Below the pieces are notes generated by a model, which was not told where the DNA came from, ran no database searches, and worked only from the letters and a program-made list of their open reading frames with translations. A stretch of 27,715 bases of DNA, taken from IMG/VR virus record IMGVR_UViG_3300002231_000345, positions 2,510 through 30,224 of that record, one strand, 5' to 3'. A program made the position numbers and the translations under genes. The stretch's first letter is position 1. Each line of letters starts with the position of its first letter. This stretch comes from a virus. Positions 3,039-27,715 of the stretch are shown here, in pieces.

Positions 3039-3319
3039 AGAGAACGGACATAGACAAGGAAATAATCTCTGACGAGATGAAATTTCGCCAGTGGGTTATT
3101 ACTAAGTTGACTATGATGGAAGCGAACACACCTGGCAAAGCGGCCCCGTGCCAGCTAAATAATCTGCGCCTTGAGGAGGCGGCTAAGGAGCGAAGCAAAA
3201 TTTCCGACAAGTTAGATGCCGTGGCCGACAAGGTGTCTTCTGGATCGACACAGGCGGCTATTATCGGGTCAGTAGTCAGCTCGCTGATAGTGGGACTTGG
3301 GTTTCTACTCAAGCTATAG
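3035..3319 (+). CDS. Holin-like small membrane protein
   Basis: This encodes 94 residues. The first 50 or so are charged and helical, with a PCQLNNLRLEEAA segment resembling the Cys-containing start of the coiled coil in many small phage holin or haemolysin XhlA-like proteins. A heptad-like stretch (SKISDKLDAVADKV) follows, and a single C-terminal transmembrane helix (AAIIGSVVSSLIVGLGFLL) ends in KL. A GGAG site precedes the ATG, which overlaps the upstream stop. Size, layout and position beside the terminase fit a holin or holin accessory protein that permeabilises the inner membrane at lysis, but one helix and no close motif leave this tentative. It could instead be a membrane-anchored accessory of unknown role. 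No separate soluble endolysin is seen next to it; the lysozyme-like domain at 18.1-18.6 kb is in a virion-type gene. Confidence 0.5.
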   Translation: MKRTDIDKEIISDEMKFRQWVITKLTMMEANTPGKAAPCQLNNLRLEEAAKERSKISDKLDAVADKVSSGSTQAAIIGSVVSSLIVGLGFLLKL

Positions 3320-3332: not shown

Positions 3333-4850
3333 TTGGACGAACAGCAGCGGCAGGTACTAAAGATAGCCTCAGAGAGCATCGAAGCCTTTGGCAAGATGTT
3401 CCTGCCGAAAGCAGTAAGCGCCGCTACTCCTGATTTCCATAGGGACATCTATCAGGACTTGCAGGACAACTCGATCAAGCGTCTTGCCGTCATCGCTCCT
3501 CGTGGCCACTCCAAGTCTACAGTGACTTCCATCCTCTATGTTCTGTGGCGGATTCTGTTCAAGCCGGCAGACGAGGATCTATTGATAGTGATGGTGTCGG
3601 AGTCACAGCAACAGGCGATCAACTTCCTCACTATCGTCAAGACCAACCTTACGGACAACCCGCGGGTGAACGCCTTCTTCGGCGACATGTCAGGGAAGAA
3701 GTGGACCGAGGACGACATCACCTGCGCGAATGGCTCCCGGGTTATAGCCCGGGGCACGGGGCAGAGGATCCGCGGTACGGTTGGCGGAGTCCTTGGTGTC
3801 ACCCGACCGAATGTATTGATCTTCGACGACTTCGAATCAGAGACTAACAGCAACACCCGTGATCAGATAATCAAGAACAAGGACTGGCTGCTCAAGGCTG
3901 CTTTGCCTTCTCTGGCAGATGACGGTCGGGCGATAGCCATCGGCACGATCATCAGTCAGTTCGCCTTCCTGGCCGATGTCCAGAAAGAGGGTAGCGGTTG
4001 GAAGACGCATTTCTATCAGGCGTTCAAGGACGGGAAGATCGGCGGAGAGCCCCTGTGGCCAGAGCGATTCCCTAAAGAGCGGCTGATGGAGATATACAAG
4101 TCCTACGACTCAATGGGCAAGCGCTCCGCCTTCTGGCAGGAGTACATGAACAAGCCTATTGACATTGATAGCCAGACATTCCAAGAAGCCGACTTCCGTT
4201 ACTACAGCGGGTCTATTATCTTGGTAGACGACATTCAGCCGTGTATCCTTGGCAGGGACCACCCGATGCAGGAGGAGGAGGGGTACCCAGACGACTTGGT
4301 GATTCCTCTCTCGGTGTCCCTGGGTGTCGATCTGGCGATCAGTGAGGCCTACGAGGCGGACTTCACGGTGATAATGCCCTTGGCTATAGATGCGTCAGGC
4401 TACAGGCTGATCCTGCCCTTCCTGCGGTTCAAGGAGCCCGACATCGATGTTCTTGTCCAGAAGATCCTCGATACTGCCATAAGCACAGGATGCGGCAGGG
4501 TGAACATCGAGGCCATCCAGTTCCAGCAGGCGGTGGCGAACCACTTCCAGAAGAAGATGATGGAGAGCGGGCGATATATGGTTGTAAGCTGTACCAAACC
4601 CAGGACCAGCAAGGACAGCCGTATCCGTTCGCTCCAGCCGCTATTCAAGTCGCACAAGATTTTCCACCAGGAATGGATGCACGAGCTTGAGGACGAGCTT
4701 ATCAACTATCCTCGGGCTGGTCATGATGATATTCCAGACGCCCTGTGGCTGGCCGAGCAGGAGGCTATCCTGCCCGACATGGACCCGTTCATCGATGGTG
4801 AGAATACAGAGCACAGAGAGGAAGAGGCCGAGTCATGGCTCGTTCTTTGA
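3333..4850 (+). CDS. terL: Terminase large subunit (DNA packaging ATPase/nuclease)
   Basis: This encodes 505 residues, the usual size for the family. It powers genome translocation into the procapsid through the portal and cuts the concatemer. The N-terminal ATPase shows a modified Walker A (APRGHSKST, residues 55-63) and Walker B (VLIFDDFES, 161-169). A GTIISQ motif near 204-209 may be the coupling motif. The C-terminal RNase H-like nuclease has acidic residues in GVDLAISE (Asp333), NIEAI (Glu393) and HDDIPDA (Asp465/466). Translation begins at TTG with a strong Shine-Dalgarno site. The 3' end overlaps the portal start by 16 bases, suggesting translational coupling. No small terminase subunit is recognisable in the window; it may lie upstream or elsewhere. 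The packaging strategy (headful or otherwise) cannot be read from this sequence. Confidence 0.93.
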   Translation: MDEQQRQVLKIASESIEAFGKMFLPKAVSAATPDFHRDIYQDLQDNSIKRLAVIAPRGHSKSTVTSILYVLWRILFKPADEDLLIVMVSESQQQAINFLTIVKTNLTDNPRVNAFFGDMSGKKWTEDDITCANGSRVIARGTGQRIRGTVGGVLGVTRPNVLIFDDFESETNSNTRDQIIKNKDWLLKAALPSLADDGRAIAIGTIISQFAFLADVQKEGSGWKTHFYQAFKDGKIGGEPLWPERFPKERLMEIYKSYDSMGKRSAFWQEYMNKPIDIDSQTFQEADFRYYSGSIILVDDIQPCILGRDHPMQEEEGYPDDLVIPLSVSLGVDLAISEAYEADFTVIMPLAIDASGYRLILPFLRFKEPDIDVLVQKILDTAISTGCGRVNIEAIQFQQAVANHFQKKMMESGRYMVVSCTKPRTSKDSRIRSLQPLFKSHKIFHQEWMHELEDELINYPRAGHDDIPDALWLAEQEAILPDMDPFIDGENTEHREEEAESWLVL

Positions 4851-6897
4851 AGAAGCCAGACGAGATCTACCATATCTGGGATTCGTACCGATCCGAGCGG
4901 GAGCAATGGGCGGTGGAGGCCGCTAATGACGAGGACTTCTATTTCGGGAACCAGTGGACGAGTGCTGACGCGAAGAAGCTGGCCGAGAAGGGGATGGCTC
5001 CGCTTGTAATCAACCGAGTGATGCCGGTGATCCAGCAGGAAATGACGATGTTCCTTGGCCGCCAGCCTCGCTTCAGGTATGTAGCGGCAGAGGACAGCGA
5101 TGTAGCTAAGGCCGGCATATTCGGCGGTATCAGCGATCATGTCTGGGCGATCAGCAACGGCGACCTGCAGATAGCGTCAGCAATGCAGGACTACTTCGTG
5201 ATGGGCGCCGGCTACATGATGGCTCATATCGACCGCTACGCCGACGAGGGCCGTGGTGAGGTGAAGGTGCGGCATGTGCCGGTATGGGATGTCTACCCCG
5301 ACCCCAACAGTCGCCTGATCGATCTTTCTGATGCTAGGCATATCTTCATTAGTCGTTCGATAGACCGCGATGGGCTTATCTACATGTACCCCGATAAGGC
5401 CGCGGCTATCAGGCGCGTCGATATAGATGAGGCCTATGTCTCTGACAGGCCCGAGAGTGGCACCTACAAGAACGGAACAGTTTCCCCTGCCGATATATCC
5501 TATGACGAGCCAGGAGGCGCCTACGGGAAGATCAGGGCCATTGAGAGCTATTCTAAGATCATGGTCCCATTGCTGAAGCTGGTAGATACCAGAACCGGCG
5601 TTACGATGATCGTTGATCCGAAGAAGTTCGATAAGAAATCGGCTTCTCCGTCAGTGCGGGCCATCGAGCTGTATGAGCCCCGCATCCAGGTATCGGTTAC
5701 TGCCGGGAAGTCCGTGAAGCTGGACGAGTATATGCTCCCGATGGACATCTACCCCATCGTGTCCCTCTATCTCCACCATTCAGGGACTCCGTTCCCTGTT
5801 GGCGATGTCCGTATGGTGAAGGGGCTACAGCAGGAGATCAACAAGCGGCGATCCATCATGATCCATAATGCCGCCGCCAGTAGCAACACGCGATGGCTAG
5901 CCGAAAAAGGAACGATCCCTAACAAGGCAGAATGGGAGCGCTCAGGGAATACGCCCGGGGCGGTGCTTGAGTATGTCCGCAGTATGCAGGGCGATAAGCC
6001 GGAAATGCTCCTTCCGGGGCAACTGCCTAGCGCATGGATTCAATTAGAGCAGGAAGCGCAGAACAACCTTGAGTACACCCTCAGTGTATTCGCGCATCAG
6101 ATGGGATCTGCGCAGGACGCCCCTGAGACTTATCGTGGTATGCTGGCCCTGGACGAAAAGGGTAAGCAGAAACTCAACTTCAAGGCCACCCATGCTCGCA
6201 TCGGACTGCGTAATCTCGGCAAGATCATTCTACGGCTTGCGCAGCTTACCTACACTACGCCCAAGGTCATCAGGGTCGTCGGCGAAGAGAGCGGACCCGT
6301 CAAGGAGTTCTTCCTCAACAAGCCACACATCGACCCGCTTACGAATCGTGTCGTCAAAATCAATGATGTCACCATCGGGAACTATGATGTTATTGTTGAG
6401 GACGGGATGTCAATGCCCACCAACAGGCAGGCACAGCTTCAGCAGATGCAGGAGCTATATCAGCTTGGCGTGGTCGATAAGGTGGAGGTCCTGAAGAAGA
6501 CCAGCATCCCCGACCGGGAGGCCGTCATACAGCGTATGGGCGAGATCCAGCAGCTAAGCGGACAGGTCCAGCAGTTGCAGGAGGCGATGAAGAACATCGA
6601 GGGGCTCAACCAGACATTGCGGCGTGAGTTGCAACAGCGTGAGATCCAACTTGGCGTAGAGAAGGAAATGACCAAGGTGCGTAGATACCATGCGTCAGAC
6701 CACTGTTGACGAGCGGGTAACTCGAGGCGAGAATCAAGGATGAACTTATCCTTATCAAGCGCGAGGGTGCGATCAAGAACAACAAGAACGAGGTCGCGTA
6801 TGGGTTCGCGAAGGCGCAAGCGGCGCTGGATGCGAAAAGGGCCAGAATGAAACAGGAGGCACAAGATGAGCGATCAGACAAACACTCCGACGAATGA
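4835..6897 (+). CDS. Portal protein, P22-like, with two apparent frameshifts at its C-terminus
   Basis: The portal is the dodecameric ring at the head vertex through which DNA enters and leaves. The N-terminal pattern DFYFGNQW, then a GMAPLVINRV segment, MTMFLGRQPRFRY and VPVWDVYPDPNS, is typical of P22-type portals. The uninterrupted frame stops at TGA 6707-6709 (624 residues). The sequence continues coherently if one base is skipped near 6685-6692 (reading DTMRQTTVDERV) and another near 6720 (reading LEARIKDELILIKREGAIK), ending at TGA 6895-6897. The downstream frame has no start codon of its own, and the corrected length is exactly 686 codons plus stop. The restored tail is a long charged coiled coil, as expected for the portal barrel. 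The scaffold start at 6866 would then overlap the true end by 32 bases. The frame breaks may be sequence errors or real lesions. Confidence 0.9.
6854..6859 (+). promoter_or_regulatory. Ribosome binding site of the scaffold-like gene
   Basis: A perfect AGGAGG lies 6 bases upstream of ATG 6866, inside the restored portal C-terminus. It supports the ATG at 6866 over the TTG/GTG-type start in the other frame near 6894. Confidence 0.6.
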
Positions 6898-7648: not shown

Positions 7649-9216
7649 ATGAGTGGCGAGTTCGTTTCTAATCCTTTTGACCATTCGACTGGTCTTGATG
7701 TCGGGTCGTTCAACTCTCAGGACGAGTTCCTGGGATACGGCACCCTGTTCAACAACCCCGACCGCTTCGTTCTGCAGATGAGCAAGCGGATCCACATGCT
7801 CAACCCAACCGCCGCGCCGTTCCTTAGCTGGGCGTCCGCGGTTCGCAAGCGTCCCACCGGAGGCACTCACTACAGTTGGATGGAAGACGAGCTCTTCACC
7901 CACCGTGATGTGAAGGCCGTCGTAAAATACAACTCTACCGAAGAGGTCTATACGCTGCAGTTGAAGAATCCTGGAGACTGGCAGGCGTTCGAGGCCGCGG
8001 CTGAAGGCGATGTCTGGTATGACAACAAGCCGATGATCCACATGCTGATTACCCCTGTGGGTTCGACAGCTCCGGTTCTCGGCGTGATCATCAAACAGCC
8101 CGCGTTGTACCTCGGCCCGACGCATCGGTCTTACACTGGTGTTGCTGGCACTGCTACGCTCATCAATGAGATCGTGCTTGCCGAGAACAACACCACGCCC
8201 GTTATCGGCGGCGACAATGCCGAGGTGGATGAGATCCCTCTGCATGATGGCACCCATGGCACATGGGTAAACGGTACCGACTATGGCTTCGGGCTCGATT
8301 TCACCCAGACTGACTGGTACGCATCTATCGGCGCCGACAAGAACACTGATGTCTATGTCCAGGTTGTTACTCCGCAGGAGTACCTCAAGGGCTTTGCTCA
8401 GGGTTCTGGTTTGGCCAACGAGTCGCGCAAGGCGGTCGCGTACCTACGGGAACCACACTCAGATCTTCAAGAAGTCGTGGACCATCGCGGACACGCTCCT
8501 GAAGTCCGAGATGTATGGCCCGAGCGAGCTGGCCCGCCTGCGTCTGCGCAAGACCATCGAGCACAAGGTGGACATCGAGCGGGCGCTGTTCTTCCAGGGC
8601 GGCGGTGTTGAGCATACCGACTGGGGCTCTCTGCCGGAAGCCGGGAAGACGAACCCGAAGACGGTCTTCAAGGGCCTTGGGGTCGGTGTGACTGATCGCA
8701 GTAAAGCCGGGTTCATCAACACGAAGAACGCCGAATGGGAGACAGACTTTGTTCTGCCTACCGCCGCTACGCTCAGCGATGTCAATACGCTGGTCGGCGC
8801 GGTGTTCGACGATAGCGTGGACAGCCCCGTCCTCGACCAAGGTGGCGTTCTGCTCTATGAAGTGGCCCGTTAAGCTCGGCCAGATGGCTCTGCAAACCGG
8901 CGGAGACGGCTTCATGGAGTTCGGACAGCGGATGCAGGCGGGTAACGCCATTGGTATCCGCGGCGTGAACACCCTGATGTCCCCTGCCGGCATGATTCAC
9001 TTCGTCTATACTCCGCTGTTGCGTGGTATCTACGAGAACTATGCCGTGGTTCTGGACATGAACAACATCGAGATCCGCCCGTTCAAGGGTCGCGACACTC
9101 AGCTGCACTCCAACGCTGGGTCGCCCGACATCGACGGTCGCCTCGACTACCTGCTCACTGAATTGGGTATCGAGGTCCATCACGAAGGGACTCACGCCCT
9201 GCTGAAGCTGGGCTAG
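7649..9216 (+). CDS. Major capsid protein (HK97-fold type) with two apparent frameshifts
   Basis: The position after a scaffold, the strong Shine-Dalgarno site (AGGAG 7636-7640) and the following hairpin fit the most highly expressed structural gene. The frame from ATG 7649 runs to about 8440. Skipping one base near 8441 gives ...ESRKAVATYGNHTQIFKK and continues to about 8866. Skipping one base of the CCC at about 8868-8870 gives ...LLYEVAVKLGQMALQ and runs to TAG 9214-9216. The corrected length is exactly 521 codons plus stop. The NHTQIF...ELARLRLRKTIEHKVDIERALFF segment resembles the spine-helix region of capsid proteins in the DUF5309-like group, and GNAIGIRGVNTLMSPAGMIHF is compatible with the A-domain. 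Family assignment is from memory. In raw form the gene looks like three separate overlapping frames, which would be misleading. A genuine lesion in so essential a gene would be lethal, so sequence error is favoured. Confidence 0.83.
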
Positions 9217-15834: not shown

Positions 15835-16343
15835 TGTCGTACAGCACGCCAGATAGCGCAGTTCGATACCTGAATGAAGAAACCAACTTCACTCAACAGG
15901 CGAAGGTTGGCCTTGGCGCTGAGTTCATCAACAACTATGTGCGGTCGAAGATGGCGAATGTGGATGTCGGCGGAGCCTTGGATAAAGTCGGGATGGGCAC
16001 TTACGCTAGTGGCATGGAGTTCAGCGGAATCGGCAACAAGCTGTCTGCTAATGTACTCGGCAAGGCCGCGGGGATGATGTCGCAGGCCGAGGTCCAGGCT
16101 AACGACATCAACCAGAAGGCCAAGGTCAACGCGCAGAACATTATGCTACAGCTCGCCCAGCACCAGGACAACATGCAGCTAGAGACAGACAAGCTCAATT
16201 CGCAGGGCGGTGGGTTATTTGGGGCCTTGACTACAGGTTTGTCAATCGCCTCTAGCCTTGAGGGCCTGGGCGCGTTTAAGCATCTGGGCGGGCTCAAGAA
16301 GTTCTTCGGAGGCGGCGAAAGCGCGATCAAAACGCTCTACTAA
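15834..16343 (+). CDS. Probable internal virion (ejection) protein B
   Basis: This encodes 169 residues with ATG 15834 (TAATG overlap; GGGGAG about 8 bases upstream). A long helical stretch centres on SQAEVQANDINQKAKVNAQN followed by Gln/Leu-rich QLAQHQDNMQLETDKLNSQ. The C-terminus is Gly-rich and hydrophobic (GGGLFGALTTGLSIASSLEG), typical of proteins that insert into or cross membranes. This pattern recalls small podovirus internal core proteins such as the T7 gp14 type, although I cannot show homology. It lies between ejection protein A and the lysozyme-bearing protein, with only 13 bases before the next start. Confidence 0.55.
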   Translation: MSYSTPDSAVRYLNEETNFTQQAKVGLGAEFINNYVRSKMANVDVGGALDKVGMGTYASGMEFSGIGNKLSANVLGKAAGMMSQAEVQANDINQKAKVNAQNIMLQLAQHQDNMQLETDKLNSQGGGLFGALTTGLSIASSLEGLGAFKHLGGLKKFFGGGESAIKTLY

Positions 16344-16356
16344 CAGGAGAGTAACC

Positions 16357-18633
16357 ATGGGTATCACACGCACTGACCTGGCCGCAATAGATAGCCTGAT
16401 CGCCCAGCAACAGAAGAACAAAAAGCTAGCGGCGGACCAGACCGACCGTGAGGCGCGTCTTCGTATGGCCGAGATGCAGGTGCGTAACAGCAACATGAAG
16501 ACGAAGATGGATATGGAGAAAACCAGATACGGGATGGTGAAGGACACTCTCCAGACGGCCATCCAGGTGTCTGACCACGAGCAGAAGCGTAGGCTAGACA
16601 AAGTAAATGTTCGATTGATGGAGGGGCAGATAGAACTTAACGCCGCGAAACTAAGTCAAACGAGACAAACTATGGTTCTCGATAAGGTCAAGGAGATGGA
16701 GAACTTCGTCGCAAGAGGGCAGGTGCAGTCAGCGAATATGGGCAAGGAGGCGAGTGGCTATGTTAATCTAGCCAACGGTGCTCTAGAGAACGCCTACGGC
16801 GCATACATGGACACCAGCATACCAGAATCGCCGACTGTAAGGAATACCTTCCTAGACGATTTTTATGGTGCGGTTACACAGAAAACCGGAGGGTCGTCGA
16901 ATAATACGAGGGACAGGTCTAACGCATTTAGCGACACGCTCACGGAGACATCGCGTATTCAATCGACTCTATTACGTGTTGTAGGGATAGAGACAAAGGG
17001 TTCAAAGGACGGGGGGAGCGTCGATGTCCAGGCCAGAGATGTAGTAGACAGGTCCGCAAGGATCAGCTTCATTGGCGGGATAGCCAAGCGGGCGCTTAGA
17101 TCGAAAAACGGTTATGCTAAAAACACGGCCAACATGATCTTAGACGGCATCAAGACATTGTCCGATAAGCGTAGCAAGGAGAACTACACCGAGGCCGATA
17201 TTAAGGAGATCAAGGCCGCTGAAAAGCAGATACAGGACAACTGGCAAAACCTATCCCCGTATGTAAAGGCGAATGGGGCATCGTTCCAGATTCTACAGTC
17301 TCCTGGTGACCCCACGGGCGGCAACAGCCTGGTGAATAATCTCATGACCTCCTATATGCCCAACGTTGGGATGTCGATGACTAACTACCTTATTAACAGG
17401 GACCATGCCGACAATATAGCGCGGAAGAAACGCGCTCTCGAACACAAAGACAGTGCTCTCTTAAATTCCGGGTTATCTATGTTGTCCAATATAACCGCGA
17501 TAGCCGCAAACGGTGGCAGTGTCGGGGATGCTGTGCAGGTGGCTACCGAAGGAAACAACGCCCTAGCTGACAAGCTCCACAGCGGAGTGGACGGCGGCGG
17601 TGGCAATGCTAGCGGCGCCTCCGATACGGCCAACACGGGCCAATCTGGGGCCACTCAGCCCGACAGGGCGGGCATTGCCGGCTCGCTGCATACAGGAGCA
17701 ACCGATACAACCCAGGTTAGTGTTCCCGATTCGTTGCAGATTGGCATGCCCGACACCACGCAGGCTAGTGTAGCGGATACAACCCGAGCTAGTGTAGCCG
17801 ATACGATGAGGGCAGGCGTAGCCGATACGATGCAAACTGCTCAGCCAGATACCATGGGTACCGTTCAGCCCGACACCACGCAGGCTAAATCAGCAGATGC
17901 GCTGTTAAGCCCGGGCCCGGGGAAAGGGACAACTGGTGGTTTTGATATTCCTGAGACACTAGCTAGACCCAAGGACGCCAATAACCCAGAGACAGCACAG
18001 GTTAATCCCGAATACAGAGCCGATAAGATCCCGAGTGAATATAACGGCTTAGCGCTGCATCGATTCCCTGGCTTTGAGGACTCTAATCTGCTACAGAAGT
18101 ACGGAGTGCCTGCAAGGCTCGCAAGGGCCTTGGCCCCGATATTATCCGTCATAAAGCGGGAGGAGAACAGGGTCGGCGGCTACGCTGCTTTCACCAAAAA
18201 CAACAAGGTGGTGTTGGAGGGTGCGTCCACTGGCGGCTATAATTACCCCACACTCCAAGAAGCCATCAATATTGAACGGTCTGGCAAGGCATCGCAATTC
18301 GGGCCCTATCAGTGGACGCCAATATTCATGGAAGACCTGAAGTTGCTCCATGTGAGTCCCGACACGGTGCTAACACCGAAGGTCCAAGATGTTCTTACGG
18401 CGATGCTGCTAATTAAACGCCATAAGATCGATAAGCATATATCACAAGGTGGAGAGAAAGGCATACTCGGGATGGCCGATGGCCTATCAACTTTATTCGC
18501 CAGTATGCCCGGTGATGAAAGCGGCTTATCCAAATATCACGATGTTGGCAGTAACATGGCGAAGATCAGCTGGAACGAGTTCCTCAGTTATATTAGGATG
18601 TCGATGGGCGCTTACAAGAAAGGTGACATCTAA
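16357..18633 (+). CDS. Internal virion protein with C-terminal lysozyme-like domain
   Basis: This encodes 758 residues. The open frame extends back to 16258, but ATG 16357 follows AGGAGA (16345-16350) at good spacing and lies after the previous stop, so it is preferred. Residues 1-130 are a long charged coiled coil (LRMAEMQVRNSNMKTKMDME and on). A helical middle follows to about 430, then a Gly/Ala/Ser linker and eight 8-residue repeats (about residues 449-512). The C-terminal 170 residues look like a lysozyme-fold muramidase: IKREENRVGGY with candidate catalytic Glu602/603, ASQFGPYQW (residues 645-653) matching the A-x-G-x-YQ signature, and VQDVL (Gln677-Asp678) matching the usual QD. It would locally open peptidoglycan so ejection proteins and DNA can pass. 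The exact glycoside hydrolase family is not resolved. It overlaps the giant gene by one base. Confidence 0.65.
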   Translation: MGITRTDLAAIDSLIAQQQKNKKLAADQTDREARLRMAEMQVRNSNMKTKMDMEKTRYGMVKDTLQTAIQVSDHEQKRRLDKVNVRLMEGQIELNAAKLSQTRQTMVLDKVKEMENFVARGQVQSANMGKEASGYVNLANGALENAYGAYMDTSIPESPTVRNTFLDDFYGAVTQKTGGSSNNTRDRSNAFSDTLTETSRIQSTLLRVVGIETKGSKDGGSVDVQARDVVDRSARISFIGGIAKRALRSKNGYAKNTANMILDGIKTLSDKRSKENYTEADIKEIKAAEKQIQDNWQNLSPYVKANGASFQILQSPGDPTGGNSLVNNLMTSYMPNVGMSMTNYLINRDHADNIARKKRALEHKDSALLNSGLSMLSNITAIAANGGSVGDAVQVATEGNNALADKLHSGVDGGGGNASGASDTANTGQSGATQPDRAGIAGSLHTGATDTTQVSVPDSLQIGMPDTTQASVADTTRASVADTMRAGVADTMQTAQPDTMGTVQPDTTQAKSADALLSPGPGKGTTGGFDIPETLARPKDANNPETAQVNPEYRADKIPSEYNGLALHRFPGFEDSNLLQKYGVPARLARALAPILSVIKREENRVGGYAAFTKNNKVVLEGASTGGYNYPTLQEAINIERSGKASQFGPYQWTPIFMEDLKLLHVSPDTVLTPKVQDVLTAMLLIKRHKIDKHISQGGEKGILGMADGLSTLFASMPGDESGLSKYHDVGSNMAKISWNEFLSYIRMSMGAYKKGDI
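17701..17892 (+). repeat. Eight tandem 24-bp units encoding an octapeptide repeat
   Basis: Eight consecutive 24-base units encode (P/A)DT(T/M)(Q/R)ASV-type octapeptides: TDTTQVSV, PDSLQIGM, PDTTQASV, ADTTRASV, ADTMRAGV, ADTMQTAQ, PDTMGTVQ and PDTTQAKS, trailing into ADALLS. The third and eighth units share 17 identical starting bases. The array links the helical part of the internal virion protein to its lysozyme-like domain. It probably acts as a flexible or extended spacer whose unit number could vary. Confidence 0.85.
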
Positions 18634-21600
18634 TGCCGGGTACCCTGGGACAGCCTCTAGGCGCACCTGCCGGGACACAGGATTCGCAGATCCAAGACTA
18701 CTTGATGTCCGTAATCGAGTCGTCGGGCGTGTCGTTCAACAAGGACGATCTCAAGAAGAAGTTGCAGGAGGCGTATGCCGCTGGCGTAAGCCGTGGCGAG
18801 TTGGTGCCAGGTAAGCTGACGCCGGAGGACATGGCTACAGCCCTATATTCCGTCAATCAGGCTTATGGCTCTATCGCCATGCGCCAGCTACAAGTGGACA
18901 CCACCAGCACGAACATGAACGGCAGTGTCGCCCCAGCGGCATTCGCCAACGGGATAGGCCGAGCTGGTGCGGCTGAGTTCAACCCACGCCGTATTGCTCT
19001 TAATGCCACATACAGGTCCGATTCCGGCTTCGGTGACACCGTCAAGGATGCAGGTCTTGCTCTTGCCTACCATCTGGTAGACAGCGCCAGCCTGGGGCTC
19101 ATGGGGGCCCTGGGTAGTGTGCTGAAGAAGACCGGCGTTACCGACAAGAACTTCTGGACCGAGACTAGCTTCCTCGCCGACGCCAAAGAGACACACACCA
19201 AGCTAGGCAAGCTCGGAGCACTCACAGGAGAGGGTCTTGGCTTCTTGGCCCCGGGCGCCGCAGGTAAGCTGGTCAAGGTCGCTGGTAAGGGCCTCCAGGC
19301 TGCCGCTGCTGCAGGCAAAGCGGTCGAGGCGGTCAAGGGGGCGGAAGAGGCGACAAAGGGCGGCAACGCGCTCCTGAGGGCCGCTAAATCGCTAAGGAGC
19401 ATGGAGGCAGAGGCAAAGATCGCTAGCGATGTGAATAAGCTTAGGTCGTCTGCCCGTGGAGCGGCTGGCGGCGTTGGAACGGCCTTGAGCATGACTGCCC
19501 GGAGTGCGTCTTACGGGGCGGGCACAGCCCTGAAGGCAACAGGTGAGGTCGTATCAAAAACACTGTCGGGGCCGCAATACCTGCTCGGGTTGCCGGTAAG
19601 GGGCGTTCGCTGGGCTAGGACTGTAGGCAACAAGGCGGTTACGAAAGCCGCTGTCGATGTGTCCAAGAGTGTAGCTAAGGAGGCGGTGGCAAAAGGCCTG
19701 ATCGACGGCAAGGACGCTGTCACAATCGAAAAGCTCGTCAGGAAGACCGCAGGTAGCCGGGGGATAAAGGAGTCTATCCTCGGTGGGAAGATGGGCGTAG
19801 CGCCATGGAAGCTGGTCCGTGGTGAGTCCCAGAACATCACCATCGACAGCATGAGCATCTTCCGAAGCAAGTTCTTCGATAAGCTCGTCAAGGAAGGAAT
19901 TGACAAGGAAAGTGCTAGCGTACTAGCAGACAAGGCCACTGCCGGGTTAGTCGAGGGTGCGGCTGAGCATGCCCCGAAGTCGCTGGCCGAAATAGGTTTG
20001 AGCACAGGCCTAAACAAGGGCTGGGGTAGCAGGGCTACTGCGCTGGCCTTCAGCGGCGCAATGGTGGAACATGGCCTTGAAGGCGCCCTCAACCTCGCTA
20101 CATTTGGCTCTTTTCGCAGGTTCAGCGACGCCATGGCATACGCTGATGTCAAGCGTGAGTCCTGGGGGGAGTTGATGTCGTTTGCCGGTAGGCGAGCAGC
20201 TGGGGTAATCGACGATCAGGGGAAGGATGTGACCCTCCCGCACAACGCCCTCCTCCACGATATGGCAATAGGCGGAATCTTCCATACAGGCGCGGGCCTC
20301 AAGTTCCTGAAGGTGTCTGGCGAACGATCAGATGCCTTCGGTAGGGCCGTGTCTAAGTATTTCAGGCCGACAAAGGGTTTCGCGGCGTCATTGAATGGCG
20401 GCATGGAGCTGGCGTTTAAGCGTATCGCTGTGGCGACGGGTATCGATGGCCTGGAGAACATGACCTATGGGGAGTTCATCAAGACCCTGGAGAAGCGGAA
20501 GATCAAGGGCCTGCCAGCTCTCGTGAAGGCCTTTGTCCCCAACTACGAGAAGCTCTCGGACGAAAAGCTCCGTGTTCTAGGACTGACTGCGCTCTCGGCG
20601 GCGGAGAAGACAGACCCGCTCGCACAAGCCTATCTCTACAAGATGGGGACATCACTAGAGACAGGTATCAATTTCAACACCATCAAGGCTGATCTTATCT
20701 CATGGCTGGACACAAATGCCGAGACTCAGTTGCGGCAGTATGTGGGTGATAGTGCGGCGGCATTGAGGTCCGACATCTTCAAGGGATTAGGAACAGCGGC
20801 ACTTATCGGATGGACTACCGGCGGACACAACTATTGGGGCAAGAACATCCTGGGGAAAGACAACGGCTATGGAAGCGCCCTGGACTCCTCAATGCTCCTC
20901 TCAGCGGCGTTCGCCCTACAGTCGGGGTTCACGGGCGCATGGGGTGGATCGTTCGCTAAGGGTGTATATGACAGCGCCAGAAGGAGCGAGCGGAACGGCG
21001 AAAGAAACTACTTGATCAACCTGCCCGAGTTCGATGATGCAAGTGACTATACACGGAACCCGTTGCCAGCGGGGTTACGCAAGAAGGTTATGCCGGGGCT
21101 ATCGGATAAAGAGATCCTGCGTCAGCGCAATATGGAGCTCCTTCATGCCATGGGTGTTCCCGGGGCCCGGTATATGTTCGCAGATGCGAAGTACATGTAC
21201 GGGGTTATCAACTCCCCGGTGCAAGCGGCTATCCTCAAAGCCAAGCGTCGCGGCAAGGGCGCCCCGAAGTCCGATGTGACCACACGGTTCCTCGACGATG
21301 TCGGCAGAGAGAAGGCCAAGCTCGACGCCAAGCTGGACTCGCCGGAGGTTCAGGCCGCTATCAGGGACTACAACGAGAGCGTCAAGAACCACGGACCCGC
21401 CAGTGTAGATTCGATCGAGCCGAAGGAAGTCGCCGTAGCTATCGGCCTATTGAACCGAATGAACCAGCTCGGGCTGGAACTGCCCCCGTCACTGCAGAAG
21501 CTAGCGGAAATGTCCCTGCATCTTAGGGACACCGCGCAGAAGCGGCTTGAGGAAGAATCCAAGGTCAGCGGTGAGGACATAGACATGAGCATCGCTAGGC

Positions 21601-24600
21601 TCATGGATAGCGCCGTCAACGACGAAGAGCTTAAACAAGAATCAATCCTGGTTACCTTGGCCATGCGCGAATACATGAAGAGCAACAACTTAGTGGCCCC
21701 TGGCGACAGCCCCCAGGTCAACGCGGACAGTATTGCGCGGCTGTTCTTCTATGAGAAGAATAAGGGCATATCTATCGTCAAACAGGCCTCTGACGCGGCG
21801 GCATACGAGATAGCTACGCTACTGAACATCCCGCAAACGGACGCCCTGCGTACCATCACCACGAAAAACATCAGCTTCGAAGGCGATAATACGGCGGACC
21901 ATGCGCAGTTGCAGCTTTCGGTAAACGGCATACAGAACATCGTCCAGGCGACCCGAGGAACCTCCTCTGTATTCGAGGCCGGCGGTGTGACTATCGACCT
22001 GGGTACACGCGCCGAGTTCGATAAGGGTAATCTCAATGCGGATACCGCCAGGATATTCGACATCAACCTTGAAGAGTATCGCAATGCGGCGGACCCGAAG
22101 ACCCGTGACCAGGAATACCTAGACCTCGCCTGGGATCTGTATCAAGAGAAGGTCAAGGCGTTTCGCGACAACATGGAGAGCACTGTAAGCAAGTTCGAGG
22201 ACAGCTTGTCTGGTGCTGGCTATGGCTACTTCGAGAACGCCTACTTGGCTGCGAATGTCATCGTCAGGGATATGTCGTACATCAAGAGCAACCTGGTACT
22301 TTCTGTCTCACAGCACGGGGATGCTGTCACCGCCGATGGGCAGAGCTGGATGGACATGGAGACCATCCAGGCCAACCTGGTTAAGACTGGCCGGTACCCG
22401 CTGTTGATCGACAGCCCCCTGCCCAACGAGCCCGGCATTAAGTATCTCCCCCCTATCAACGAGAAGGAGTTGGTCAAGAGCCTGGGTGGCGGCGCCGATG
22501 CGGTTAAGAAGGTGGACTTCATCAAAAGCCTCTTCGGGTTTATCGCCCTGGACAAGTCAGGCAACATCGTGCCCATCAACACCTACGAGTTGGCAGACAG
22601 AATCGCCAACAATCTCGGTGGCAAAACCAAGGCAGGAGTCAGCCCGGTAGAGATTACCGATAAAGAGCAGGTCGCATGGATCTTCAAAACACAGCAGTTG
22701 CTCGATAGGGACGGGAATCTTTTTGACGGCAACATGAGCGACTTCCTCAAGAAGAGCGGCCTGTTGACTGGCGTTACCGGGATGGACAGAGAGAGCTTCG
22801 GCGCTGTCAGCAGAATGCGGATGGCCGGTGCCTCCCCGTTGACGCATCGGCTTCATACCCTGATAGAATCTCTCGGCTTAATTGTCAGCCACAATAACCG
22901 GAAAATCTTTATCGGGCCCAAGCGGTTTGCTGAAACCAGCATCATCGATAAGGCTGGGCCTGAGCTTGAGGCCGAGGGTAAAGACCTTGGAGATTTCGAG
23001 GGCGCTACACGGTTTGCCGATGCGGCTCCTGACAACCCACAGCTTCCTGATTACATCGAGGTGTTGAAGACCTACTTTGGCGAGAACCGCCAGGCGTTCG
23101 ACCTGATCGACGCACTGCCTAAAGAGGCGCGGGCCATCCTCGACAACGCCCTTATCGAGATGATGGACATCGGGTTGGTTCACAGCATCGACTCCGCGGG
23201 CCTGAAGTCCGTAGAGGCCGAACAGGGTGTGGCCATCTTCGCCCCGAACAAAGCGGGAGAACGCGAGCTCAACGCCCTGGTAGACGGGATCATGCTGGAG
23301 ACAGAGAAGTATTACGAGGACATCGCCGCGAATGTATCAACGGTGGTGGATAATCTCAGGAACTCATTCAAGAGCGGTAAGCTGAAGGTCGCATCGGTAA
23401 AGCTTGAGAATGCCGTGATGCTTCTTGAGCGGTTTGCCAAGACTGGTGACCGACGCCTGTACAGAAAGGTAGCCGCGCTGTTGGCCGACGCTGAGATCAT
23501 CAAGTTCAAGTCGAAGGTCACGAAGGGCGGCAAGACGGTAGGCCTCAAGACGACCCGTATCAAGCTCAAGGAGACATGGAGCGCCAAGAAGGTCGTAGAT
23601 GCTATAGAGAAGCTGGCTGTATTCGGACAGGACTACAACATCGCTAGAACAGCAGAGCCCTACGAGGACTACAAGGCCAACGCCGAAAGGGTAAGGCACC
23701 AGATCAATGAGCTGGAGGAGGATCTCAAGGACTCCCCCGGTCGATCCACATACGGGCATATCAGGAGCAACCTCGGCCTCAACAAGTCACAAGAGGAAGT
23801 GTTCGATGCGGAGGCCCAGCGAACCGTTCGGGCCCATACAGGATCTCGCGATGAGCTTATCACCAAGATGCGCACATTGCTGGAGCAAACCGTAGGCGAC
23901 AGAAAACCTGCCAAGGGGGATAAAAGCGGCAGGGACATGATCGATGAACTCACGGACTACGACATTCAGGGAATTATTAGTCACCTGAGCGACATCGAGG
24001 AGCAGACCTTTGTAAGCCTGGAGCGCTATTCTCATTCGGGCACCATTCACCCTGCAGACGGACCAGATGCAATAGCAAGGAATGCTGAGGCCGATGGCAG
24101 GCCCGACATCAACGGAAAGCCGACACTCGGAGCAGAGGAGGCGAAAGCCACAGGGAAGCTTGGCCTGGAAGAGGCTAGCTCCGCTACATCCAAGGGTGAT
24201 GCACCTCGCCCGTCGGCCCATGCTGGTAGCGTAGAGGGTGACGCCGTAGTGAGGAAGGAGTGGAAGGCGCCAGACGCCGCCTCACGGCTCTCTCAGACAT
24301 CGGGGCTGCCCGTGGTTCGGATTAGCAACATGGACTCGCGTAGGGGCATGCCACGGCCTCTGACGGCAAGTGGAGAGGCGGTCCAGAAGCTACAGCAGGC
24401 ACACTGGGAGGGCCAGAAGAGCGGAAACACCGTTACCTATGTCAATCTCAACAGGCTAGGCGGTGTGGAGCACCCGACCAAGGCTCGTCCTGACGAATAT
24501 CGTGGGATTCTGGTACCTGTGCCCGGGACCGGGACTATCCACAACTGGCTGTTGCCTAATGTCGATACCGTTGAGGCATTTGTTAAGCACCTGGACACAC

Positions 24601-27600
24601 TCCGCAATGCCTATGAGCCGCTGATCGGAGACAGCAAGGACGCGGCTGATCTGATTAGGTTTATCGGGTCGAAGGAGGACGCGGAGAAAGCGGACAAAAA
24701 CGGGGCCATCATCAATGAAGACGGAGAGGTAGAGCGTGTGGTCCCGGTTCTCGCCCAGGTCTCACACTTGCTCAATAAGAGCATAAGCGAGCTAAGATCT
24801 AATACGGAATTTCTCGAAGCGGTTGACGGCGCAGAAGAACCGTTCACCAACTGGGAGCGCCTTGTTGGGGCTACGGTATTCCATAGCCAGGTAGGTGACG
24901 AAGGGGTTAGGAGCTATCTCGCTATAGGAGAAAAGGGCTCCGAGGCGCTGAACCCGCTTATCCGCCGGCAACTGGTATTCGGTCGCAATGGGTCATATCT
25001 CGATAATGAGTCTGTAAATTGGGCCCTTGATCGTGTGGCGGATGGTGAGAATAGGCGCCGTAGGACGGAGACTATTGACGGAGAAGAGAAGGTAACGCTC
25101 AGGCCATACACCGAAATGGAAATGAACGGCCATTATACAGATAGTGATGGCAATACTGTCCTTAGAATATTGCTTATCGACAATACTGAAGACACCGGCC
25201 TGAGGTCCGACTCTACACTATCTGCGGATAGGCTTGGTGTATTCCAGGGAGACGGTGATGCGGGGCTGAGAAGCGCATACATGGACGGTGTGGTTGCCTC
25301 TAACGGCATAGACCCCACGGAGCCAGTAGGTGCTGTTAAACTAGGGTACATTGCTCAGGGATTCGCCGGTAAGTCGGACACCACCTATCAGCCTGAGTTC
25401 GAGAATATCGGTGCATCGTCTGGTACGGCAGGATACATCGCGGTTGACACAACGAAATACAACTTCCTGGGTGTTAAGCCCGCGAAGTTCCGTATCTATG
25501 GCGATGATGGAATAAGTGTCGAAACATCCAACCATGCGGAGGTCTATCGGGCTGAAGCTGCGGGTAAAAGGGTGGAGGTGCTGAACCCCGAGGAGGCTAT
25601 TCTACATATCAAAGCCAAAGACATAAGGTTCCAAATGGAAGTTACACCCAAAGTCGAGCGGGCAACGGTCACGCATTCTGTATCGTCATATTTAGGCAAG
25701 GACGCCCTTGAGGAGTTTGTAGCGAGGGCTGGGCAGAAACACGGCGAGATCGTGAATCTGTTCACTTCTGTGCTTGGCGGGAATAGCCCGATGAAGGCCC
25801 GGGCCGCAAGGGACATGTTGCTGGACCTGTATGACCCGGAGAAGCTACACCCAGAAGACAGAAGCGACATGGATGTGATCGTCACATACCTGAAGGCTCA
25901 TCCGCTCAATAGCCCCTACGAGATCGGTGGGGCCAAAAAGGTGATGCAGTACCTTATGAGTAGGATCATGGAGACTCACGGCTTCAGGTCAGTAACGAAA
26001 GCAGGAAGTAAGGGGGCCGCGGTTCCCGGGTACCATAACGCCACTAGAGAGGGTGGCATGTTTATCTCTCATGCGGACAGGTCGATAACTGTCCCATTGA
26101 GTGATGCTGTGCTGACGGTCTATATTGATCCGATGATCTCAGGCAGGCGCGACGAGACACACGCGAGAGTCCATGACCTGAACAAACAGTCGGTTGGCAT
26201 TGACGATATAAATGAGCATGAGCGTAGCGCGCGGCCCGTAACCGGAAAACACGATACAGGCAGAAATCACTGGTTCCACCAACTGCTCAGGGCGACCGAA
26301 ACAGGCGAGCATAGTTGGTTCTATAGCCTGCTCAAAGAGACACGGCGCAAGATCAACTACAAGGAAGAGGGCCTATCAAAAGCCGAGCGTGAAATCAGGG
26401 AACGAAACCACATTAGGCTCAGGTCGGCTACTGGAATCGCAAGCCACCACGCACCATTGCTTAGGGCGTTGGCACTTGTCGGGGATGTGCCATTTGAAGG
26501 CGTCAGAAATAAATCCGGCATTGGGGATAAGCGCGGCCTTGGCGAGCTTGCTGGGGACTTTGTGTCTCATGTGATGTCCGGCAGAGCGGGCAAGGCACAG
26601 GCAGATGGGGAGACACTAAAGAAGTATGTACGGCACTTGAAGCGTGGCGTCAATGATGCCGATAGGGCTGTGATTATCGAGGACATCGACAGGCTGATCA
26701 AGCATGCGACAGACGGCTCACTGCGTGGATCCACAGAGGCCGGGCATATCGGTCTAGGTGGCTTAATGGATATTCAGAACATAGCCGCAGGACGCCGTGT
26801 GCGGAATGACGACGAGGCTGGCGGCGTTAGGTTCCAAACCAGGGGGGCAAACTACAGGAAGCTGTTCAGGGACAATGCTGGTGACATCGTTCCAGGTCTG
26901 GAAAACTACGACACATTCACCAGCCACGGAGTTCTGGCTTCTGCTCACAGGTCGCCCACACAGCAACCCAACGATTTGATGCCGATAGTCGTTCAGGGAA
27001 CCCTCAACAGGGAGTATGGCCGTCAGCTTATCATGAACCATCGCGATGTGGTGATGGGCGAGGGCGATTACGATAAGGATCTTTTCAACTACTGGTTCGA
27101 CAACGGGCCAAAGATGGTGTCGCATCTTATGGGCATCAGGAACATCGCTGGCGGCACATCTGAGCCCGGGCTGAAGCCGCTCTACCCTACAGTACCTATC
27201 CGCAACTACAACCCGCTAGCGGCCCCACAGAACATCTCTAACCGCGATGACATCAGGTATGCTCGCAGTATGGAGTTGGCGCAGAAGGGCCGAGGTATGG
27301 TCATCGGCGCCAGGAATGTAGGCCTAGCGTACCTGCGGAAGGGCTTCCGTGCGGAATGGATGCACAACGGCCACATATACCGGCTTGTCCCGAAATACGA
27401 CAAGGTGGACTTCGGCAACAAGGACCTGGTACGGGCGTTGGGAGAGATCTCAAGGCTGGTGCAGGATCACCTGGATACGAAGAAGGGACTCATACCCGAA
27501 GAGCTGTTGAAAATAGACCATCTTATGTTCGTGTTCGACAGGCTATTCAAGATAGAGCAAGAGGACTTCCCGGGTCATGTTGTCTCTGGCGGCAATGTGT

Positions 27601-27715
27601 CTGACAATCAGCAAGCAGTGCGTCTGGCGCATGCCGGGGCGGCCCCCTATAGGCAGTTGCTCAGTATAGGGAAGGACATACACGAGGGCGCCAAGAGCCG
27701 CTCAAAGCCCTTTGA
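18633..27715 (+). CDS. Giant virion-type protein (>3,027 residues, 3' incomplete) with a candidate RNA polymerase core
   Basis: From ATG 18633 (TAATG overlap; AAAGGTGA about 8 bases upstream) I read the frame to the window end without a stop, giving 3,027 whole codons. Residues 1-300 are Ala/Gly/Lys-rich. Hydrophobic, possibly amphipathic stretches occur near 469-495 (ALAFSGAMVEHGLEGALNLA) and 718-765 (GTAALIGWTTGG, SSMLLSAAFALQSGF), as in large phage ejection proteins. Residues about 800-2000 are mixed helical with charged coiled coils and no domain I recognise; residues about 1820-1880 look like a disordered linker. Residues about 2200-2830 hold motifs of a two-barrel RNA polymerase, described separately. 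The position after ejection and lysozyme-type genes fits a protein injected with DNA. N4 and crAss-like phages carry giant virion polymerases, but N4's belongs to a different (T7-like) family whose motifs I did not find here. It may also be a 'polyvalent' multi-domain protein. Confidence 0.85.
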   Translation, partial: MPGTLGQPLGAPAGTQDSQIQDYLMSVIESSGVSFNKDDLKKKLQEAYAAGVSRGELVPGKLTPEDMATALYSVNQAYGSIAMRQLQVDTTSTNMNGSVAPAAFANGIGRAGAAEFNPRRIALNATYRSDSGFGDTVKDAGLALAYHLVDSASLGLMGALGSVLKKTGVTDKNFWTETSFLADAKETHTKLGKLGALTGEGLGFLAPGAAGKLVKVAGKGLQAAAAAGKAVEAVKGAEEATKGGNALLRAAKSLRSMEAEAKIASDVNKLRSSARGAAGGVGTALSMTARSASYGAGTALKATGEVVSKTLSGPQYLLGLPVRGVRWARTVGNKAVTKAAVDVSKSVAKEAVAKGLIDGKDAVTIEKLVRKTAGSRGIKESILGGKMGVAPWKLVRGESQNITIDSMSIFRSKFFDKLVKEGIDKESASVLADKATAGLVEGAAEHAPKSLAEIGLSTGLNKGWGSRATALAFSGAMVEHGLEGALNLATFGSFRRFSDAMAYADVKRESWGELMSFAGRRAAGVIDDQGKDVTLPHNALLHDMAIGGIFHTGAGLKFLKVSGERSDAFGRAVSKYFRPTKGFAASLNGGMELAFKRIAVATGIDGLENMTYGEFIKTLEKRKIKGLPALVKAFVPNYEKLSDEKLRVLGLTALSAAEKTDPLAQAYLYKMGTSLETGINFNTIKADLISWLDTNAETQLRQYVGDSAAALRSDIFKGLGTAALIGWTTGGHNYWGKNILGKDNGYGSALDSSMLLSAAFALQSGFTGAWGGSFAKGVYDSARRSERNGERNYLINLPEFDDASDYTRNPLPAGLRKKVMPGLSDKEILRQRNMELLHAMGVPGARYMFADAKYMYGVINSPVQAAILKAKRRGKGAPKSDVTTRFLDDVGREKAKLDAKLDSPEVQAAIRDYNESVKNHGPASVDSIEPKEVAVAIGLLNRMNQLGLELPPSLQKLAEMSLHLRDTAQKRLEEESKVSGEDIDMSIARLMDSAVNDEELKQESILVTLAMREYMKSNNLVAPGDSPQVNADSIARLFFYEKNKGISIVKQASDAAAYEIATLLNIPQTDALRTITTKNISFEGDNTADHAQLQLSVNGIQNIVQATRGTSSVFEAGGVTIDLGTRAEFDKGNLNADTARIFDINLEEYRNAADPKTRDQEYLDLAWDLYQEKVKAFRDNMESTVSKFEDSLSGAGYGYFENAYLAANVIVRDMSYIKSNLVLSVSQHGDAVTADGQSWMDMETIQANLVKTGRYPLLIDSPLPNEPGIKYLPPINEKELVKSLGGGADAVKKVDFIKSLFGFIALDKSGNIVPINTYELADRIANNLGGKTKAGVSPVEITDKEQVAWIFKTQQLLDRDGNLFDGNMSDFLKKSGLLTGVTGMDRESFGAVSRMRMAGASPLTHRLHTLIESLGLIVSHNNRKIFIGPKRFAETSIIDKAGPELEAEGKDLGDFEGATRFADAAPDNPQLPDYIEVLKTYFGENRQAFDLIDALPKEARAILDNALIEMMDIGLVHSIDSAGLKSVEAEQGVAIFAPNKAGERELNALVDGIMLETEKYYEDIAANVSTVVDNLRNSFKSGKLKVASVKLENAVMLLERFAKTGDRRLYRKVAALLADAEIIKFKSKVTKGGKTVGLKTTRIKLKETWSAKKVVDAIEKLAVFGQDYNIARTAEPYEDYKANAERVRHQINELEEDLKDSPGRSTYGHIRSNLGLNKSQEEVFDAEAQRTVRAHTGSRDELITKMRTLLEQTVGDRKPAKGDKSGRDMIDELTDYDIQGIISHLSDIEEQTFVSLERYSHSGTIHPADGPDAIARNAEADGRPDINGKPTLGAEEAKATGKLGLEEASSATSKGDAPRPSAHAGSVEGDAVVRKEWKAPDAASRLSQTSGLPVVRISNMDSRRGMPRPLTASGEAVQKLQQAHWEGQKSGNTVTYVNLNRLGGVEHPTKARPDEYRGILVPVPGTGTIHNWLLPNVDTVEAFVKHLDTLRNAYEPLIGDSKDAADLIRFIGSKEDAEKADKNGAIINEDGEVERVVPVLAQVSHLLNKSISELRSNTEFLEAVDGAEEPFTNWERLVGATVFHSQVGDEGVRSYLAIGEKGSEALNPLIRRQLVFGRNGSYLDNESVNWALDRVADGENRRRRTETIDGEEKVTLRPYTEMEMNGHYTDSDGNTVLRILLIDNTEDTGLRSDSTLSADRLGVFQGDGDAGLRSAYMDGVVASNGIDPTEPVGAVKLGYIAQGFAGKSDTTYQPEFENIGASSGTAGYIAVDTTKYNFLGVKPAKFRIYGDDGISVETSNHAEVYRAEAAGKRVEVLNPEEAILHIKAKDIRFQMEVTPKVERATVTHSVSSYLGKDALEEFVARAGQKHGEIVNLFTSVLGGNSPMKARAARDMLLDLYDPEKLHPEDRSDMDVIVTYLKAHPLNSPYEIGGAKKVMQYLMSRIMETHGFRSVTKAGSKGAAVPGYHNATREGGMFISHADRSITVPLSDAVLTVYIDPMISGRRDETHARVHDLNKQSVGIDDINEHERSARPVTGKHDTGRNHWFHQLLRATETGEHSWFYSLLKETRRKINYKEEGLSKAEREIRERNHIRLRSATGIASHHAPLLRALALVGDVPFEGVRNKSGIGDKRGLGELAGDFVSHVMSGRAGKAQADGETLKKYVRHLKRGVNDADRAVIIEDIDRLIKHATDGSLRGSTEAGHIGLGGLMDIQNIAAGRRVRNDDEAGGVRFQTRGANYRKLFRDNAGDIVPGLENYDTFTSHGVLASAHRSPTQQPNDLMPIVVQGTLNREYGRQLIMNHRDVVMGEGDYDKDLFNYWFDNGPKMVSHLMGIRNIAGGTSEPGLKPLYPTVPIRNYNPLAAPQNISNRDDIRYARSMELAQKGRGMVIGARNVGLAYLRKGFRAEWMHNGHIYRLVPKYDKVDFGNKDLVRALGEISRLVQDHLDTKKGLIPEELLKIDHLMFVFDRLFKIEQEDFPGHVVSGGNVSDNQQAVRLAHAGAAPYRQLLSIGKDIHEGAKSRSKPF
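25200..27130 (+). other. Candidate two-barrel RNA polymerase catalytic core within the giant protein
   Basis: In order along the protein: GIDPTEPVGAVKLG (residues 2225-2238, with Lys2236 a possible first-barrel lysine), DIRFQMEV (2330-2337), HPLNSPYEIGGAKKV (from 2423), a basic-Gly GSKGAAV segment (2458-2464), HRSPTQ (2772-2777), PIVVQG shortly after, and GDYDKD with Asp2812, Asp2814 and Asp2816. A DxDxD triad following an R-x-PTQ element is what I would expect for the metal-binding second barrel of the crAss-like phage virion polymerase family, a variant of the multisubunit DFDGD motif. The segment between the two halves is long (about 290 residues from the ITVPLSD strand to HRSPTQ). A second first-barrel lysine is not evident, so activity is not assured. 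Confidence 0.55.

Follow-up and report, generated by a model that had tools for sequence, protein, structure and literature searches.

A giant protein of an uncultivated podovirus clade: a probable two-barrel virion RNA polymerase with a terminal-cysteine pattern that recurs in Crassvirales

Our analysis of a 27,715-nucleotide stretch of viral DNA (hereafter the window) indicates that residues ~2,150-3,250 of a giant open reading frame (ORF) very probably make up the catalytic region of a single-chain RNA polymerase of the two-barrel type, in a protein that would be packed into the virion, ejected into the host and used there to transcribe early genes. Membership of the two-barrel (double-psi beta-barrel, DPBB) RNA polymerases, whose features have been described (PMC7824862, PMC7886860), had been proposed in an earlier note on this DNA and is well supported by homology in the second barrel (DPBB-B), by conservation of an aspartate triad and by the predicted fold of relatives. 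The divergent branch claimed in the same note is upheld within the two-barrel virion RNA polymerases of an uncultivated podovirus clade, while its crAss-like label holds for the enzyme, with the phi14:2 virion RNA polymerase (vRNAP; 6vr4) as top match of the relatives' model. For the phage itself, with its P22-type portal, PHROG 38 terminase and a coat and adaptor like those of phage SU10, we saw no sign of membership of Crassvirales. The most surprising result is a pattern of terminal cysteines in the giant and in the protein encoded next to it, which ties the window clade to Crassvirales independently of fold.

The frame of the giant is still open at the end of the window (3,027 aa) and reaches a length of 3,624 aa in the parent IMG/VR contig of 41,594 bases, where its stop lies ~1.8 kb past the window and a single codon, at residue 3028, is ambiguous. 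An N-terminal part of ~2,050 aa precedes the predicted RNA polymerase core, which lies towards the C-terminus (Table 1). All motifs quoted in the earlier note were found in this one frame and where it had placed them, namely GIDPTEPVGAVKLG (last residue 2238), KDIRFQME (residues 2329-2336), HPLNSP, HRSPTQ (H2772-Q2777, nt 26946-26963) and DYDKD; for HPL..P a conserved counterpart was not found. The DYDKD sequence is the sole DxDxD within the giant, with the triad at 0.78 of its length, and since shuffled copies of the giant average 0.96 DxDxD per protein, so that about one is expected by chance at this length, the five-residue motif alone proves nothing. The composite R.P...P.D...DxDxD, on the other hand, had 0 occurrences in 2,000 shuffles of the giant, and it is the block R-x-P…P-N-D…E-G-D-Y-D-x-D as a whole that is evidential. 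The relatives' second-barrel profile scored 37.7 bits at residues 2770-2831, as against at most 4.3 bits in 200 shuffles, and a profile of 27 relatives' cores from which the window had been left out (A4) found this block as its sole match in the window contig (E 4e-11).

Table 1. Features of the late operon and of the giant protein, in window coordinates.
Feature	Position	Strand	Evidence or remark
Large terminase subunit (PHROG 38)	3333..4850	+	E 4e-91; route to related phages
P22-type portal protein	4835..6709	+	Pfam P22_portal, E 1.2e-76
791-aa ORF, candidate ejection protein	16258..18633	+	Directly upstream of the giant; cysteine-free
Giant ORF	18633..27713 (contig 21142-32016)	+	First 3,027 of 3,624 aa
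AVKLG...FAGK, residues 2234-2247, putative part of lysine-bearing DPBB-A	25332..25373	+	Alignments A7, E-INS-i
KDIRFQMEVTP, residues 2329-2339	25617..25649	+	Alignment A7: end of relatives' DPBB-A (KDIELGAVVKP in L110)
DPBB-B motif block, residues 2770-2831	26940..27125	+	hmmsearch 37.7 bits, profile E 4e-11, hhalign E 6e-7
D2812-Y-D-K-D2816, predicted magnesium-binding aspartate triad	27066..27080	+	Conservation in relatives
RDDIRYARSMELAQKGRGMVIGARN..., putative bridge-helix region after DPBB-B	27234..27330 (approximate limits)	+	Alignment A7; helix in low-confidence model
PYRQLLSIGKDIHEGAKSRSKPF, colinear with relatives' block after trigger-loop region	27639..27713	+	3.0 bits vs 1.3 as best of 300 shuffles

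The relatives were reached through the terminase, a search with which led to distantly related podovirus contigs, and these records were then searched with the window core. Matches to the first four giant ORFs were nearly confined to the HRSPTQ-DYDKD block (~32% identity), and alignments of these four giants yielded 14 and then 50 further loci. The same motif block, which reads R-[YN]-P-R-T-R-P-N-D ... E-G-D-[YF]-D-x-D in the relatives, is carried by ~60 related contigs in proteins of 2,800-3,060 aa, and nearly all of the further loci have it in ORFs of 2,800-3,000 aa. The conservation of DxDxD among loci selected by motif is partly circular, as part of the motif had gone into the search patterns; however, six distant giants were reached via the terminase and not via the motif, and all six keep DxDxD at a similar relative place (DFDGD, DYDGD, DGDGD, DHDGD, DFDFD and DYDYD). 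Four of the six (G005, G006, G008 and G012) are also hit by the family profile over the region of the first barrel. No homologue lacking DxDxD was found among those checked, these six included. The DYDKD variant, which the earlier note had counted among the signs of divergence, is present in the giant, yet it amounts to a small variation only when set beside DYDVD, DYDAD, DYDID, DFDVD and DFDGD in the relatives. The giant of G012 (L170:3367-11165) lies in two overlapping frames of 1,500 and 1,119 aa, one of which has the matches to the first barrel while DxDxD falls in its partner, representing either a split enzyme or a frameshift.

The window core had no match in Pfam, PHROGs, PDB sequences or INPHARED (tblastn, megablast), and none in IMG/VR when used there as a single sequence. 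Likewise, the cores of three relatives had no match in INPHARED, tblastn among 50,697 phage records returned no relative, and no matching locus was found in GTDB genome contigs. An exact-spacing pattern scan returned 4 loci only, of which the one inspected has an internal stop. The family profile met just coiled-coil noise among PDB sequences, the comparison of the family with PHROGs and Pfam gave scattered singletons, and global hhalign produced no useful match.

Structure prediction indicates that the family folds as a two-barrel RNA polymerase with both barrels and the bridge helix. An AlphaFold2 model of the core of relative L102, computed with 27 sequences, reached a pLDDT of 75.8 and a pTM of 0.73, and its top PDB match in Foldseek was 6vr4, the phi14:2 vRNAP (E 2.5e-7). 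In VIA-align the same model gave a Z of 12.5 to QDE-1 over 498 residues across both barrels, 9.1 to the phi14:2 vRNAP over 668 residues, and 9.1 and 8.9 to the polymerases of phages P74-26 and P23-45, respectively, so that the nearest solved fold is the phi14:2 vRNAP by Foldseek, while QDE-1 stands above it by VIA Z. The matches of the model among viral predicted structures included crAss-like proteins, one of them annotated as a putative RNA polymerase. Several crAss-like proteins matched in BFVD with a probability of 1.00, e.g. A0A7M1RUN7 and A0A7M1RVD7, are named 'DNA helicase' or left uncharacterised, and these are possibly misnamed polymerase proteins.

In the window protein itself a lysine-bearing first barrel (DPBB-A) is putative. 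In alignment A7, AVKLG, FAGK2247, KDIRFQMEVTP and the late block PYRQLLSIGKDIHEGAKSRS, the last with a score just above shuffles, meet conserved elements of relatives L110 and L118, and AVKLG...FAGK is aligned with the relatives' KPxIxSxG...LGKT. A profile search for DPBB-A in the window protein was not significant, pairwise comparisons gave p 0.02-0.05 at best, and two alignment settings, E-INS-i and L-INS-i, disagree on its register. The register at 2348-2423 of the window protein (L-INS-i, A5) does not retain the K, GK and SxxK residues of the family and was set aside for this reason, as a judgement call. Under the preferred alignment ~200 aa more than in the relatives separate the two halves, in agreement with the long insertion described in the earlier note. 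A structure model of the window core, which was built on A6, that is on the other DPBB-A register, with the family alignment borrowed, was poor (pLDDT 47.2, pTM 0.46). Its first 50 PDB rows were all RNA polymerases, at a Foldseek E of only 0.02, and its alignment with QDE-1 covers both halves, but these matches are not independent because the family alignment went into the model.

The extreme divergence of the giant, the failure of the profile to find DPBB-A in the window protein and the weak window model would also fit a structural or ejection protein without catalytic activity, derived from such a polymerase, that has kept the fold for threading or as a channel. We consider this improbable, since even far-diverged relatives preserve the triad and R-P-x-D with little or no change, and a protein that had lost catalysis would hardly be expected to do so. 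It is harder still to believe that the giant belongs with the N4-type virion RNA polymerases, whose domain is the T7-like palm, an affiliation that some authors have assumed for similar podovirus proteins such as that of phage StenR_269 from the same argument of comparable size (3,500 aa in N4 gp50) and cysteine scarcity (PMC10747016), given that the relatives are predicted to fold as two-barrel enzymes, with a PF00940 search of the contig silent, as was its control.

Terminase, P22-type portal, coat, adaptor and giant form one same-strand late operon, in which the portal type recognised in the earlier note was confirmed by Pfam (E 1e-76) and in which the 887-aa ORF after the giant is homologous and syntenic to the ORFs after the relatives' giants. 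The gene order and the cysteine scarcity of the giant suit an ejection protein, in support of the earlier claim of a giant, probably ejected protein (3,624 aa, late operon, near-total absence of cysteine); one cysteine in 3,624 aa is what one would expect if the chain has to pass an oxidising compartment as a thread. According to the polymerase reading, DPBB-A would supply lysines and DPBB-B the residues D2812, D2814 and D2816 for magnesium, with a bridge helix after them. The giant would be made late, packed into the virion together with the 791-aa protein encoded before it and the 887-aa protein encoded after it, ejected unfolded through the short tail and refolded in the host, where it would transcribe early phage genes before the host RNA polymerase is used. 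Of this scheme we infer the early transcription, the packaging and ejection steps and, for the window protein, the first barrel.

The coat protein extends across three overlapping ORFs in three frames (window 7649-9216: 7649-8611, 8283-8873 and 8749-9216), of which the second and third match successive parts of one ~543-aa ORF in relatives; these are apparent frameshifts, real or due to sequencing error. The 791-aa ORF (window 16258-18633) contains a low-complexity repeat stretch in mid-protein (...ADTTRASVADTMRAGVADTMQ...), and its C-terminus had no match among PDB sequences. Past the late operon (L003:5080-11593) the likely genes lie on the opposite strand, and several of them encode small zinc-ribbon-like proteins with CxxC motifs (e.g. 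MAKKCPKCG...). No promoter-like repeat was found among the early-region repeats, and those seen looked like coding or gene-junction repeats.

The one cysteine of the window giant is its last residue, Cys3624, which is encoded outside the window, and the 887-aa ORF downstream carries Cys3. Each of the 50 unique complete giants, which include many close relatives yet about a dozen deeply separated branches, contains a single cysteine, which lies 0-10 residues from the C-terminus. The ORFs next downstream contain exactly one in 47 of 48 cases, within the first 25 residues, the lone exception having an over-extended start; some of the loci behind these counts are incomplete at the giant's 5' side or the next ORF's 3' side. 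By comparison, ORFs of 400-1,100 aa elsewhere in these contigs contain 5.2 cysteines per 1,000 aa. Cultured phages provide a parallel. In phi14:2 (KC821624; L176/L177), where gp076-gp078 are three consecutive virion proteins, the only cysteine of gp078 is its last residue, 1797, the vRNAP gp077 has Cys3 and Cys2179, and gp076 only Cys3. In crAss001 (MH675552; L179), gp47, which is encoded on the other strand, has only Cys2339 of 2341 residues, the RNA polymerase gp50 has Cys5, Cys1334 and Cys2404 of 2412, and gp49 only Cys5. The cysteines in the RNA polymerase cargo of both phages are almost only terminal, and their placement is that of three proteins linked end to start in a row. Among the comparison phages, N4 vRNAP, T7 gp15 and T7 gp16 are free of cysteine and T7 gp14 has only Cys2. 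Terminal cysteines in otherwise cysteine-poor cargo, a criterion that we propose here, are found throughout the counted giants of the window clade. We found no earlier mention of this pattern in the open-access literature; the phi14:2 structure paper may nevertheless have noted it.

As an addition to the explanation given above, we tentatively propose that in the virion the C-terminal cysteine of the giant is joined by a disulfide to the N-terminal cysteine of the next protein. On an equally tentative footing, short-tailed phages with two-barrel vRNAPs, that is the mostly marine uncultivated clade and Crassvirales, could deliver their cargo as an end-to-end disulfide train. Such a chain would pass the tail under traction as one unit and, its bonds being reduced by the host cytoplasm, would then fall apart; the terminal disulfides would also fix the threading order and free the polymerase in that reducing environment, and in crAss-like phages they would join three proteins. 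The proposal draws on the matching single terminal cysteines of 50/50 giants and 47/48 downstream ORFs, on the repetition of terminal pairs in gp078-gp077-gp076 of phi14:2 and gp47-gp50-gp49 of crAss001, and on the far greater frequency of cysteine elsewhere (the 5.2 per 1,000 aa of other ORFs). However, it is read from sequence, and as virions assemble in the reducing cytoplasm, the disulfide could only arise once the particles are released. Moreover, terminal cysteines could serve other ends, and the cysteine-free N4 vRNAP and the single gp14 Cys2 of T7 indicate that ejection can do without such bonds.

It is also conceivable, if rather unlikely, that the terminal cysteines join nothing and are by-products of overlapping stop and start codons and ribosome-binding sites, or else ligands of lipid or metal. 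The two genes do overlap or abut in the window and in many relatives, but the cysteines lie 0-10 residues from the end of one protein and 3-12 from the start of the next even where 100-200 nt separate the genes (L110, L111, L174). In addition, the position of crAss001 gp47 on the opposite strand excludes overlapping start and stop codons as the cause there.

The tail channel for ejected proteins is only wide enough for unfolded chains, and phages that bring a polymerase of their own must get very large proteins through such a channel before early transcription can start. With the present family, a clade of uncultivated podoviruses joins the phages with a two-barrel virion polymerase. The terminal-cysteine pattern that it has in common with cultured crAss-like phages makes the order and the pulling of the cargo a testable question.

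Among known systems, N4 gp50 is similar to the window giant in size (~3,500 aa) and in belonging to a podovirus, and it is cysteine-free and ejected with the DNA; it differs from the giants in its T7-like palm fold, known from the literature, and in having no terminal cysteine. The RNA-interference polymerases QDE-1 and RDR2 come first by Z (12.5) in the comparison with the relatives' model, with both barrels spanned, but are eukaryotic, use an RNA or DNA template and undergo no ejection. The vRNAP gp96 of P23-45, which is fused to the tape measure and was discovered via its DFDGD motif, resembles the giant in combining a two-barrel core with DxDxD in a giant virion protein, whereas its core is N-terminal, in the tape measure of a long-tailed phage, and is flat without a clamp (PMC10770324). 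An N-terminal core of this tape-measure type is not what the window giant has, its core lying in the C-terminal part. P23-45 gp64 and P74-26 gp62 show a VIA Z of ~9 to the relatives' model. For crAss001, the RNA polymerase proteins have been reported from virions, with extrusion in a partly unfolded state as the presumed mode of delivery (PMC10172136). Finally, the phi14:2 vRNAP (gp077, KC821624; 2,180 aa, a length that fits the 6vr4 enzyme), which is listed in its record as a virion protein by mass spectrometry, shares with the window family a single chain with both barrels in a giant cargo protein. It is the best fold match of the relatives and, like the giants, has terminal cysteines and none internal. 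However, its sequence similarity to the giant is undetectable, its aligned core begins near residue 594 as compared with ~2,050-2,150 in the window giant, and in this member of Crassvirales the chain of terminal cysteines runs through three proteins, in contrast to two in the window clade.
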